DNA of 44,621 nucleotides, from NCBI GenBank assembly GCA_030917925.1, contig JAUPTV010000077.1, positions 1 to 44,621 of the forward strand, read 5' to 3'. The DNA comes from Pseudomonadota bacterium (GTDB taxonomy: Bacteria; Pseudomonadota; Gammaproteobacteria; Competibacterales; Competibacteraceae). The translations under genes and the position numbers were made by a program. The first letter of the stretch is position 1; each line of letters opens with the position of its first letter. The notes under the pieces are model-generated. The model made no database searches. It was not told where the DNA came from and was given only the letters and a program-made list of their open reading frames with translations. Shown piece by piece: positions 9,588 through 15,304 of this stretch.

Positions 9588-9606
<19 letters not shown>

Positions 9607-9692
9607 GGGCGGCAATCCTTGACACCACGAAAGACACGAACAGCACGAAAAAAGAATCGATCAGGGTCAGACATGGGCGGCAATCCTCGACA
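9588..9692. repeat. Two 37-bp direct repeats upstream of leuA
   Basis: The 37-bp units at 9588-9624 and 9656-9692 differ at two positions only and are separated by 31 bp. Each contains ATCAGGGTCAGACA followed by GGGCGGCAATCC. Read on the minus strand, each copy carries a purine-rich AAGGA/GAGGA, then GTG or ATG, then codons for SDPDR. The repeats fill much of the 452-bp gap between leuA and the cytochrome b561 gene. Confidence 0.8.
9623..9651 (-). repeat. TTCGTG-type periodic repeat, copy 1
   Basis: ACGAA occurs three times at exact 9-nt spacing (9627, 9636, 9645), between the two 37-bp repeats. Its complement (TTCGT every 9 nt) matches the element at 14364-14392 in the opposite orientation. 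It is a small dispersed intergenic repeat of unknown function. Confidence 0.6.
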
Positions 9693-11410: not shown

Positions 11411-11773
11411 ATGAATACGCAGGATTCTTTCAGCAAAACCGAAACCCATCAGGCTTTTTCCGTCGGTCAGACCATTTTCCAGGAAGGCGATCCCGGCAAT
11501 GTCCTGTATATCGTCATTGAGGGCGAGGTGACGATTCTGATCGATGGCCAACCCCTGGAAACACTCGGCCCCGGCGATATTCTCGGCGAAATGGCGCTGA
11601 TTGAAGACCGCCCGCGCAGCGCAACGGCGCTTGCCGCCACTGACTGCCTGTTGACGCTGGTAACCCGCCAGCACTTTCTCACCCTGATTCAGCGCACCCC
11701 GATGTTCGCCCTCCAGGTCATGCGGGTGCTCGCCCATCGCCTGCGTGAAACCAACCAGCAGAGACGCGCATGA
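11411..11773 (+). CDS. Stand-alone cyclic-nucleotide-binding (Crp-like) domain protein
   Basis: A 120-residue protein that is almost entirely a cNMP-binding beta-barrel. The chain runs GQTIFQEGDPGNVLYIVIEGEV, then the phosphate-binding cassette GDILGEMALIEDRPRSATA (about residues 56-75), with Glu and Arg in the places used for cAMP/cGMP contact. No helix-turn-helix follows, so it is not a Crp-type repressor; it would be a cytoplasmic sensor or adaptor. The frame is open upstream to GTG 11363, but ATG 11411 begins close to the domain and is preferred. The stop overlaps the next ATG (ATGA), so it is co-translated with the ATP-grasp protein, which suggests a shared role. Confidence 0.85.
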   Translation: MNTQDSFSKTETHQAFSVGQTIFQEGDPGNVLYIVIEGEVTILIDGQPLETLGPGDILGEMALIEDRPRSATALAATDCLLTLVTRQHFLTLIQRTPMFALQVMRVLAHRLRETNQQRRA

Positions 11774-14331
11774 GCGAAGCCGCCCTGGCTTTCTGTCTGG
11801 AAGAATCCGAAACGCTGGAATCGCCCAGCGAAACGTTGCTGGCCTCCTATCCGGTCGCCGAATCCGGCTATGACGAGATGTGTTCAGCGCCCGGCGTCCT
11901 GCGGCCCCACTGGGTCGCTATGGCCCAGGCGCTGGAAGAACTCGGCGGCGATGAACTGGAGCGCCGCCATAACGAAGTTCAGCGACTGTTGCAGACGGAT
12001 GGCGTCACCTACAACACCTATGACGATCCACACGGTCCGCAACGACACTGGCTGGTCGATCCGATTCCGCTGTTGATGACCGGCGAGGAATGGACGACGC
12101 TGGCGGAGGGTCTGGAACAGCGCGCCCGGTTGATGAATGCGCTACTGGTGGATTTATATGACCGGCGACTGGCGATCCGGCAAGGTTGGCTCCCCGCGGA
12201 ACTGGTTTATGCGCACCCTGGCTTTCTGCATCCCTGCTACCGTTCGCTGCCCGATGGCAACCGCTGGCTGATTTTTCATGGCGTTGATCTGGCGCGGGGA
12301 CCGGATGGCGTCTTCCGGGTCTATGGCGACCGCACCCAGTCGCCTTCAGGTGCCGGCTACACGCTGGAAAACCGCATTACCCTGGCGCGGGCATTGCCCA
12401 TGCTCTACCGCGATGCGCCATTGCGCCGACTGGCCAGTTTCCTGGAAACCGAACGGACCACCCTGGCCAACCTGTCCCGGCATCATCCTGAAAATCCGCA
12501 TGTCGTGCTGCTGTCCCCCGGTCCCAACAGCCCGGTCTATTTTGAGCACGCCTATTTGGCCAATTACCTGTCGCTGAGTCTGGTCGAGGGCGAGGATCTG
12601 GTGGTGCGCGATAGCCGGGTCTGGCTGAAAACCCTCGGCGGGTTGCGTCCAGTCGACGTTATTCTGCGGCGAGTGCTGGACGCCTTCTGCGATCCGCTGG
12701 AACTGGATGGCGACTCCCTGCTCGGCATTCCTGGACTGCTACAGGCGGCGCGCGGTGGTCATGTGGTGCTGGCCAACGCCCTCGGCAGCAGCATTGTCGA
12801 AAATCCCGGACTGGGGCCGTTTCTGCCATTGTTGTGTCGGCAACTGCTGGGCGAGGATTTGAAATTGCCGTCGCTGCCGACCTGGTGGTGCGGCCAGCTC
12901 GACGATAGGGGCTATGTGCTGGCGCATCTGGATGAACTGGTGGTGCGCTCCATTCTCCCTGGCGGCCCCTATTGGGAAGGCCGCAAACTGGACGCCGCTG
13001 CTCAGGCCGAACTCATCAAGCGCATTCAGGACCAGCCGCATCTATTCATCGCTCAGGCTCCATCGCCGCTGTCCACAACGCCGGTGCTGGAGGATGGTCG
13101 CCTGACGCCGCGCCCGGTGATGTTGCGTGGATTCGTCGTGGCGGAGGATGACGGTTATCGGGTGATGCCAGGGGGACTGGCGCGGGTTTCCTCGGGGATG
13201 GATACCTTGCAGGCGTCATTGCAAAAGGGCGGCATCAGCAAGGACTGGTGGGTGCTGGCACCGACGCCGCAACGCCACGTCAGTTTGCTGCGTCAGGCCT
13301 ATGGTCCCATCATTGTCACCCGCGATGGCGGCGATTTGCCGAGCCGGGTTGCCGATAATCTGTTTTGGCTGGGCCGCTATGGCGAACGGCTGGACGGGAC
13401 CGCCCGCTTGTTGCGCGAGGCGCTGGGCCGGCTGCTGGAGTGGGAGCAGGACAATACCGATGAGCGTTGTCTGGATGATCTGTTCGAGGCACTGGAAATT
13501 CCGGTGCCGCCGGTAGCGGAATCGCCGCGCGCCCGCTTCTTCGCCCTGCGCCAGATGTTGTTGAATCTCCTGGTCGATGTGGAGCATCCGGGCAGTTTGC
13601 AAACCATCTTCAATGGTCTGTCCCGAACCGGTCGAGCGGTGCGCAATCATCTGGGCGATGACAGTTGGCGGTTGCTGAACCGCTTGCAGCAATGGATTCA
13701 GGAACTCCCCGCCAATCTGAGCGCCCGGCAGGCCCGCGAGTTGCTGGAGGAGGAGCTGGTGCTGGTCGCCTCGTTCTGCGGACTGAATAATGAAACCATG
13801 CCGCATCATCAGGGCTGGCTGTTTTTCGATATAGGCCGTTACCTGGAGCGGGTCTTGCGGACGCTGGATTTATTCAAACTGGCGTTCATTACCGCTCGTC
13901 ATCCCGGCGTCCCGCTGTGGGAAGTAGTGCTGACGATTACCGACAATCTGACCGCCTATCGTCGCCGCTACCGCTCGGCGCTGCATCCGACCGCGATTAT
14001 TGATTTGCTACTGTTTGATGAGGGCAATCCCCGCTCGGTCGGTTACCAGTTGCGGCGGTTGCAACGGCATATTGGCCGACTGCAACAACCGAATGGCTCG
14101 CCCTATCGCAGCGTTGAGGAACGGCTGGTGCTGGAAGCGCTGTCCACCCTGCAACTGGCTGATATTGCAGCACTTGCCACCCTGTCCCACGACAGTACCC
14201 GTTCCAGCGTGGAACTGATCCGACTGCTGGACGCCCTTCACAAACCGCTGTCCGGTTTGTCTGACGCGCTGACCCACAGCCACTTCAGTCATGCTGAAGT
14301 GGCTCAACAGTTGATCATGATGCGGCCATGA
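11770..14331 (+). CDS. Circularly permuted ATP-grasp / alpha-E domain fusion protein
   Basis: An 853-residue predicted amide-bond-forming (amidoligase) enzyme. Residues about 60-500 match the circularly permuted ATP-grasp type 2 family (DUF404/DUF407), with DGVTYNTYDDPHG near the start, DLYDRRLAIRQGWLPAEL and LLGIPGLLQAARGGHVVLANALG. From about residue 520 an alpha-E (DUF403) domain begins at PSRVADNLFWLGRYGERLD. In many bacteria these two are separate adjacent genes; here they are fused. Together with the downstream transglutaminase-like protein this is a known conserved trio, predicted from comparative genomics to make or modify a peptide; substrate and product are not known to me. The ATG overlaps the upstream stop (ATGA). 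Confidence 0.9.
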   Translation: MSEAALAFCLEESETLESPSETLLASYPVAESGYDEMCSAPGVLRPHWVAMAQALEELGGDELERRHNEVQRLLQTDGVTYNTYDDPHGPQRHWLVDPIPLLMTGEEWTTLAEGLEQRARLMNALLVDLYDRRLAIRQGWLPAELVYAHPGFLHPCYRSLPDGNRWLIFHGVDLARGPDGVFRVYGDRTQSPSGAGYTLENRITLARALPMLYRDAPLRRLASFLETERTTLANLSRHHPENPHVVLLSPGPNSPVYFEHAYLANYLSLSLVEGEDLVVRDSRVWLKTLGGLRPVDVILRRVLDAFCDPLELDGDSLLGIPGLLQAARGGHVVLANALGSSIVENPGLGPFLPLLCRQLLGEDLKLPSLPTWWCGQLDDRGYVLAHLDELVVRSILPGGPYWEGRKLDAAAQAELIKRIQDQPHLFIAQAPSPLSTTPVLEDGRLTPRPVMLRGFVVAEDDGYRVMPGGLARVSSGMDTLQASLQKGGISKDWWVLAPTPQRHVSLLRQAYGPIIVTRDGGDLPSRVADNLFWLGRYGERLDGTARLLREALGRLLEWEQDNTDERCLDDLFEALEIPVPPVAESPRARFFALRQMLLNLLVDVEHPGSLQTIFNGLSRTGRAVRNHLGDDSWRLLNRLQQWIQELPANLSARQARELLEEELVLVASFCGLNNETMPHHQGWLFFDIGRYLERVLRTLDLFKLAFITARHPGVPLWEVVLTITDNLTAYRRRYRSALHPTAIIDLLLFDEGNPRSVGYQLRRLQRHIGRLQQPNGSPYRSVEERLVLEALSTLQLADIAALATLSHDSTRSSVELIRLLDALHKPLSGLSDALTHSHFSHAEVAQQLIMMRP

Positions 14332-14405
14332 GGTACACCATTACTCACCGAACGCTTTACACAGTTTTCGTGGCCTTCGTGTCTTTCGTGGTGATCATGC
14401 CATGA
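14328..14405 (+). CDS. 25-codon relay ORF made by the junction duplication
   Basis: This frame starts at the original ATG that overlaps the ATP-grasp stop. It copies the first 11 codons of the transglutaminase gene, runs through the TTCGTG repeat as TVFVAFVSFVVIMP, and stops at TGA overlapping the true ATG at 14402. Its product is probably meaningless. Its position would keep ribosomes coupled from the upstream stop to the downstream start. It is listed for that structural reason and not as a functional protein. Confidence 0.4.
   Translation: MRYTITHRTLYTVFVAFVSFVVIMP
14364..14392 (+). repeat. TTCGTG-type periodic repeat, copy 2
   Basis: TTCGT occurs at 14367, 14376 and 14385, a 9-nt period. 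It shares TTCGTGTCTTTCGTGGTG with the complement of the copy at 9623-9651. Here it sits exactly between the two halves of the duplicated junction. Confidence 0.65.
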
Positions 14406-15304
14406 GGTACACCATTACTCACCGAACGCTTTACGAGTACACCAGTGGCGTGTCTTTGTGTCATAACGAAGCACGCCTGCTGCCTCGTGAGACGCCCTGG
14501 CAATTGCACCGGCCCAGCCAGATCCGGATTAAACCCCGACCGGCGGTGTCGGTGGAACGGGTAGATTTCTTTGGCAATCGGGTGCTGTACTTTGCGATCC
14601 AGGATATTCATCAGCGGTTGGAAGTCACGGTCGCTACCGAAGTGCGGGTGTTGGACGAGCGACCGTTCGACGAGTCCAGCGCCTCACCGCCCTGGGAACA
14701 GGCCCGCCGGATGTTGCAGGAAGATCCAGACCCGGAAATTGTCGAAGCTCGCTTGTTTGGGCTGAATTCGCCTTTTATCGCGATCCAGCCGGTCTTTCGT
14801 GAATATGCCGAGGCCAGCTTCCCGCCGGGCCGCCCCCTACTGGAAGCGATGGCCGATTTGAATACACGAATTTACCAGGAATTCAAATATGACCCGCATT
14901 TTACGACCGTGGCCACGCCGCTGGACGAGGTGCTCAAGGAGCGGCGTGGGGTCTGTCAGGATTTCGCCCATCTGGGGATCGCCTGTTTGAGGTCGCTGGG
15001 GCTGGCCGGGCGCTATATCAGTGGTTATCTGGAGACCTTGCCGCCACCCGGTCAGCCCCGGCTGATCGGTGCTGACGCTTCCCACGCCTGGCTGGCGGTG
15101 TATGTGCCTGGTATGGGGTGGGCGGAATTTGATCCGACCAATGACTGTATGCCCAGGGAAAAGCATGTCACGCTGGCGTGGGGCCGCGATTACGGCGATG
15201 TCGCCCCGTTGCAGGGCGTGGTCACCGGCGGCGGTTCGCATTCCCTGAAAGTGTCGGTGGATGTCGCCCCGAATCCTGAACCGCTGCGAGGAAAGCGGGG
15301 GTAG
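14402..15304 (+). CDS. Transglutaminase-like cysteine protease family protein
   Basis: A 300-residue protein with an N-terminal bacterial transglutaminase-like domain (residues 1-85, beginning MRYTITHRTLYEYTSGVSLC) and a C-terminal papain-like transglutaminase core. The catalytic triad is visible: C185 in RRGVCQDFAHL, H228 in GADASHAWLAVY and D244 in AEFDPTND. The family is cytoplasmic and usually linked to alpha-E and ATP-grasp proteins, where it may cleave or transfer peptide amide bonds. The ATG at 14402 overlaps a short upstream frame's TGA. The same ATG context also occurs 74 nt earlier through a duplication, but that copy is closed by a stop. It converges with the universal stress gene; 15309-15327 between them holds GTTCGGG repeats. 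Confidence 0.92.
   Translation: MRYTITHRTLYEYTSGVSLCHNEARLLPRETPWQLHRPSQIRIKPRPAVSVERVDFFGNRVLYFAIQDIHQRLEVTVATEVRVLDERPFDESSASPPWEQARRMLQEDPDPEIVEARLFGLNSPFIAIQPVFREYAEASFPPGRPLLEAMADLNTRIYQEFKYDPHFTTVATPLDEVLKERRGVCQDFAHLGIACLRSLGLAGRYISGYLETLPPPGQPRLIGADASHAWLAVYVPGMGWAEFDPTNDCMPREKHVTLAWGRDYGDVAPLQGVVTGGGSHSLKVSVDVAPNPEPLRGKRG

Follow-up and report, generated by a model that had tools for sequence, protein, structure and literature searches.

The window analyzed here (the whole stretch of 44,621 nucleotides, located on contig C35 of genome G000) contains an ATP-grasp gene that is followed by a transglutaminase gene on the same strand (Table 1). Self-comparison of the window revealed that a 36-bp segment covering the stop of the ATP-grasp gene and the start of the transglutaminase gene is present twice, at 14325-14360 and 14399-14434, and that 36 out of 36 positions are identical, both copies reading GCCATGAGGTACACCATTACTCACCGAACGCTTTAC. 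Taken at 43 nt (14318-14360 and 14392-14434) the identity is 93%, and a 49-nt version is obtained if 6 bp were lost from copy 2 (TGATCATG[ATGCGG]CCATGAGG). The 31 bp between the copies (ACAGTTTTCGTGGCCTTCGTGTCTTTCGTGG) include three TTCGTG hexamers with a 9-nt period. Spaced duplications of at least 18 bp within 250 bp occur only twice in the 44.6-kb window, and since both flank a TTCGTG element, the duplication at this junction is not a matter of chance.

Table 1. Positions of the genes, duplications and repeat elements considered in this study.
Feature	Position	Strand	Remarks
Second TTCGTG insertion of the window, first copy of the 37-bp target duplication	9588..9624	+	35/37 identical; single copy in G005
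Second TTCGTG element of the window, 31-bp insert	9625..9655	-	reverse orientation
Second copy of the 37-bp target duplication	9656..9692	+	
Upstream gene, CP-ATP-grasp_2 (circularly permuted ATP-grasp type 2) + Alpha-E	11770..14331	+	stop TGA 14329-14331 inside copy 1
Target duplication copy 1	14312..14360	+	exact over 36 bp (starting at 14325); 43 nt when taken from 14318, or 49 nt from 14312 with a loss of 6 bp in copy 2; single copy in relatives
31-bp insert, three TTCGTG units, 9-nt period	14361..14391 (core 14367-14391)	+	one of 15 such elements in genome G000
Target duplication copy 2, including the intact transglutaminase start	14392..14434	+	
Relay ORF, 25 codons	14328..14405	+	no family match; by-product of insertion
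Downstream gene, transglutaminase (Bact_transglu_N + Transglut_core)	14402..15304	+	

The gene junction in relatives and the relay frame

A repeat-free junction with an overlap of -4 was observed in G024, G028, G017, G009, G032, G013, G029, G033, G035 and G025, and an overlap of -1 in several other genomes. The fact that most relatives have a short overlap free of repeats indicates that the insertion and the duplication were gained in the lineage of the window. An empty site with a single ATGA overlap, which had been set beforehand as a check on the original prediction, was seen in G024, G028, G017, G009, G032, G013 and others, and the relatives thus agree with the proposed insertion with duplication. 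The spacing of the junction is not rigid among relatives, as gaps of +2 to +100 nt separate the two genes in G001, G002, G003, G004, G010, G018, G008 and G020, and the genes are 2.5 kb apart, with other ORFs between them, in G005, which is the closest relative by transglutaminase identity. By eye, this 2.5-kb stretch (L294, G005:C66, 3412-5948) encodes a cold-shock-type protein and a DNA-methylase-like ORF. In G020, the same seam was struck independently by a different insert, a REP-like palindromic sequence (GAGCCGGC...GCCGGCTC; L009 / L295, G020:C257) located about 100 bp upstream of the transglutaminase gene.

The 25-codon relay frame (MRYTITHRTLYTVFVAFVSFVVIMP, followed by the TGA at 14403-14405) shares the ATGA at the ATP-grasp stop at its beginning and the ATGA at the true transglutaminase start at its end. 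Selection for translational coupling could have shaped the insert if ribosomes that terminate at the ATP-grasp stop are passed on by the relay to the start of the transglutaminase gene, with survival only of those insertions that preserved coupling. The exact fit of the relay and the -4 or -1 overlap at this junction in most relatives are in favor of such selection, which we nonetheless consider very unlikely. When the seven inserts of G000 were placed at this junction by simulation, in both orientations and with duplications of 27-55 bp, 27% of the insertions produced a relay ending exactly in the second ATGA. Moreover, the sister insertion on contig C121 likewise hit a junction with overlapping stop and start codons, and there the element now supplies the stop of the upstream frame and the genes no longer overlap. 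The 2.5-kb distance in G005 and the gaps in other relatives also argue against a need for coupling. Selection is in fact unnecessary because any duplication that covers the gene boundary leaves a complete gene end on either side, and as the duplicated stretch covers the junction here, both neighboring genes are intact. The relay ORF is a by-product of the insertion, and the window illustrates that selection is not required for an exact translational relay to form. In addition, copy 2 contains the sequence GGTGATC, complementary to the 3' end of 16S rRNA, at 5 nt before the ATG, so that independent initiation of the transglutaminase from copy 2 may be possible, judging from this sequence. Altogether, the original prediction of a 36-bp segment with the stop-start junction present twice around a TTCGTG repeat, and of an inserted frame overlapping both the upstream TGA and the downstream ATG, was confirmed at the exact positions, and the identity of the 36-bp copies agrees with its suggestion of a very recent event. 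Its further proposal of selection for coupling was not upheld.

TTCGTG repeats in G000 and in other genomes

The inserted sequence belongs to a dispersed repeat of about 30 bp with the sequence TTTTCGTGNNNTTCGTGTNTTTCGTGGT, of which G000 contains 15 elements at no more than one mismatch, and which the same pattern scan did not detect in five other genomes of the genus. To define duplications around these elements, the left flank of every element was compared with its right flank, with mispaired and random controls. Direct flanking duplications were present at seven sites in G000 (C35:9625 and C35:14376, both in the window, C45, C86, C121, C284 and C69), with Smith-Waterman (SW) scores of 20-37 compared to a control maximum of 20 among 1188; C69 is a borderline case, its left copy being 100 bp away from the element. 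The architecture common to seven sites rules out a single isolated duplication. The duplications at these solo sites are variable in length (about 26-49 bp overall, and about 26-45 bp at the six sites other than the junction at 14361-14391), and the identity between copies ranges from 100% down to roughly 70%, which implies insertion events of different age. Orthologous single-copy sites were found for the insertion at 9588-9692 (in G005), for C121 (in G017) and for C284 (in G005, G024, G001 and G017); empty sites for C86 and C69 were looked for in relatives and not found. The first spacer is different at all seven duplicated sites, so that none of the elements could be identified as the donor. 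Flank comparison revealed no duplication at the inverted pairs C19, C229 and C262, nor at the solo element C195. In 276 kb beyond the window, the spaced duplications away from TTCGTG elements were short or resembled coding repeats, apart from a CA-repeat copy at C45. At the latter site (L228, G000:C45, 15178-15345), the duplicated 37-bp segment is present a third time, after a (CA)n run, possibly due to a second event of like kind with another insert. The second insertion of the window (9588-9692) lies between a gene that reads as leuA-like and a cytochrome-like gene, perhaps in a leader region. A longer dispersed family, its left part ending in TTTTCGTGTTTTTTCGTGTTTTTCGTGGTTAATCTCTGG, was also noticed in G000 (C20:2242, C102:18068, C134:16301, C150:6517, C222:1 and C252:34296) and has no flanking duplications.

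The exact TTCGTG pattern is present in at least 120 contig stretches, and the taxa among the matches listed include Planctomycetes, Verrucomicrobia, Acidobacteria, Lentisphaerae, Gallionellaceae, Methylococcales, Cloacimonadota, Spirochaetia and others. In viral contigs it was found in 53 stretches, and a protein search of these contigs identified one GxxExxY locus only (see below). Some viral contigs of about 40 kb, namely IMGVR_UViG_3300047586_000299, _3300044712_001278 and _3300027904_000728, carry several elements each (L344, L347, L357, L370, L359, L361, L376, L384). Clear solo duplications are rare outside G000, the examples being L356 (56 bp, score 49 versus a control maximum of 18) and L127 (67 bp). 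A universal rule of one long duplication per TTCGTG insertion had been considered and was rejected, as it fails outside G000, for inverted pairs and for whole units. At L356 (1170-1324), the 56-bp duplication around the element spans the start of a degraded GxxExxY gene, and the repeat thus seems to have entered its own partner gene. At L070 (G013:C248, about 1500-1600), an open coding frame reads straight through an inverted pair of TTCGTG elements (..NELTTKDTKSTKEK..FRDLRDFRGSNN..).

GxxExxY genes bracketed by the repeats

The two elements of the inverted pair C19 in G000 bracket an ORF for a 'GxxExxY protein' (TIGR04256/PF13366; 146 bits versus a cut-off of 35), and G006 has just two TTCGTG elements, one on either side of its PF13366 gene. 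Five out of six GxxExxY ORFs were located within 75 bp of a TTCGTG element, in loci fetched only because they hold such an element. We next scored PF13366 loci from family and class samples as bracketed if matching inverted repeats were present on both flanks with a local alignment score of at least 13. This applied to 33 of 39 loci, as compared to 0.4% of 1780 random intervals and 2.4% of 207 gene-bounded small ORFs. Local alignment with these two controls replaced a strict detector of 9-nt triples, which recovered only 9 of the 39 brackets because the true spacings are 8-10 nt; mispaired flanks make a poor control because repeat classes are common to several loci. A second set, taken from genomes of other phyla that were chosen for holding TTCGTG elements, was bracketed in 23 out of 29 cases (control 1.4%). 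PF13366 was also present in 28 of 37 element-bearing genomes versus 37 of 229 genomes of the class sample, a comparison that is supportive only, as the taxa differ between the two sets.

The repeat units vary by locus (CACGAAA, CACGAAG, CACGGAA, CACGGAT, CACAGAG, CGCAGAT, CGCAGAG, CGCAAAG, CGCCAAG and CAGGAT, at a spacing of 8-10 nt). When the unit classes, assigned by hand from the flanks, were placed on a tree of 42 GxxExxY proteins, 18 changes were required versus a mean of 29.9 and a minimum of 26 in 500 shuffles; for the distinction between units that end in G and those that do not, 2 changes were required on the same tree versus 14.2 (minimum 8). This shows joint inheritance or co-evolution of the repeat class and the protein, two processes that the tree does not tell apart. 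The 35 whole GxxExxY units that were measured span 406-628 bp, and no long duplications were found at their outer ends. The same TTCGTG ends are common to inverted pairs that bear a GxxExxY gene (C19, G006) and to gene-less ones (C229, C262). By association, the link between repeats and GxxExxY genes is strong, and strongly supported is also the view that the TTCGTG repeat is one class of three-unit repeats with a 9-nt period, inverted copies of which flank GxxExxY genes in compact units of 0.4-0.6 kb. A literature search with repeat sequence strings and family names found no description of the repeat or of GxxExxY proteins being tied to repeats or mobility.

The family TIGR04256/PF13366 (PDDEXK_3) is named without a function, and a sequence search of the PDB found no GxxExxY relative. 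We modeled the GxxExxY protein of the TTCGTG class at L104 from a four-sequence alignment (pLDDT 91.9). The best structural match was 4ic1 SSO0001 (a modest match, with Foldseek E 1.7e-4 and VIA Z 8.9), which we take to be Cas4 of Sulfolobus, followed by folds of the restriction and lambda-exonuclease types. Residues D70, E80 and K82, which are invariant in the four sequences, fit the D...ExK motif of PD-(D/E)XK proteins. According to this model, GxxExxY is a predicted PD-(D/E)XK-fold protein with putative nuclease activity.

Origin of the insertions and relation to known systems

The present data show that the repeat in the window was inserted and that its target was duplicated, with single-copy empty sites in relatives and about seven insertions of this kind in G000. 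The window feature is probably a non-autonomous solo copy of an undescribed, REP/RAYT-like GxxExxY-repeat element. The cognate GxxExxY protein with its predicted PD-(D/E)XK fold would cut or trim DNA at such repeats, and solo copies could enter breaks, where the fill-in of long overhangs would give rise to the long duplications of variable length. Solo insertion is perhaps a side route that involves break repair or template switching. The lack of long duplications on whole units and inverted pairs, the rarity of solo duplications outside G000, the missing donor and the element C195 without a duplication count against this explanation. These same whole units, inverted pairs and spacers, as well as the variable duplication lengths (about 26-49 bp) and insert ends, would fit a copying error in which, in the course of replication or break repair, the growing strand moved to another TTCGTG copy and then returned to its own template some 40 nt upstream, with no part for GxxExxY in solo insertions. 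Such an error is a serious but rather unlikely alternative, because the inserted sequence is this repeat in every case, spaced duplications of other kinds hardly occur and, within the genus, the repeats occur only in the genome that has a GxxExxY gene of the TTCGTG class.

An assembly artefact, in which two strain variants or gap closing duplicated the junction, might be suspected in an assembly of 299 contigs, but is highly improbable given seven sites of one architecture, with copies diverged to differing degrees and a different spacer in each, and given that 9588-9692, C121 and C284 fit orthologous single-copy sequences. We attach even less credence to the off-target integration of a DNA fragment by a CRISPR-type Cas1-Cas2 system. 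Such integration would likewise yield an insert of about 30 bp flanked by a duplication of about 30-40 bp, and the sizes at the window site are comparable, but the duplications vary between about 26 and 49 bp instead of having the constant length set by an integrase, and the insert is a recurring sequence rather than randomly captured DNA.

Returning to the favored GxxExxY-repeat element, a wider reading, which we offer tentatively and hold to be somewhat less than an even chance, is that GxxExxY proteins are the predicted partner nucleases of unrecognized, very small mobile elements found across phyla, consisting of the gene and two three-unit repeat ends (0.4-0.6 kb), whose solo ends may spread through an integration chemistry with target duplications of variable length (about 26-67 bp), by which they would enter gene edges without breaking either gene. 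GxxExxY proteins are widespread and have no known role, and repeats of the TTCGTG, CACAGAG and CGCAGAT types are intergenic in many phyla. Joining the two gives each a testable function, namely repeat recognition, cutting or mobility by a small protein with a PD-(D/E)XK fold, and the G000 insertions of differing age, with empty sites in relatives, form a substrate set for how repeats spread.

Of the known systems, REP/REPIN-RAYT (TnpA-REP) involves small dispersed extragenic repeats that occur as singlets and inverted pairs, REPs flank RAYT genes, and the repeat class follows the phylogeny of the partner gene (PMC3116915), all of which is also seen here with GxxExxY as the partner. Unlike in that system, the TTCGTG repeats flank PF13366 genes for a protein with a predicted PD-(D/E)XK fold rather than an HUH transposase, and their solo copies carry long duplications. 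Moreover, no hairpin or inverted repeat was found at 14250-14500 of the window, where the solo element consists of three direct TTCGTG units, unlike the palindromic REP. Given that the search revealed no hairpin and that the partner gene differs in kind, the GxxExxY-repeat family is, by analogy, a candidate system that would work like REP-RAYT and not a member of it. The gene-less inverted TTCGTG pairs resemble MITEs in that they look like deletion derivatives of a gene-bearing unit with which they share their ends, whereas the copy at the window site is a single end only. Target duplications of classic MITEs are short and fixed, in contrast to those of TTCGTG elements, where none were detected for pairs and variable ones of about 26-49 bp for solos. 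The TAACTGA direct repeats of Beggiatoaceae (PMC4679880, the abstract of which mentions neither a target duplication nor a partner nuclease) and other short tandem repeats between genes are likewise short intergenic direct-repeat arrays in distant lineages, but the TAACTGA repeats differ from TTCGTG in unit and period.
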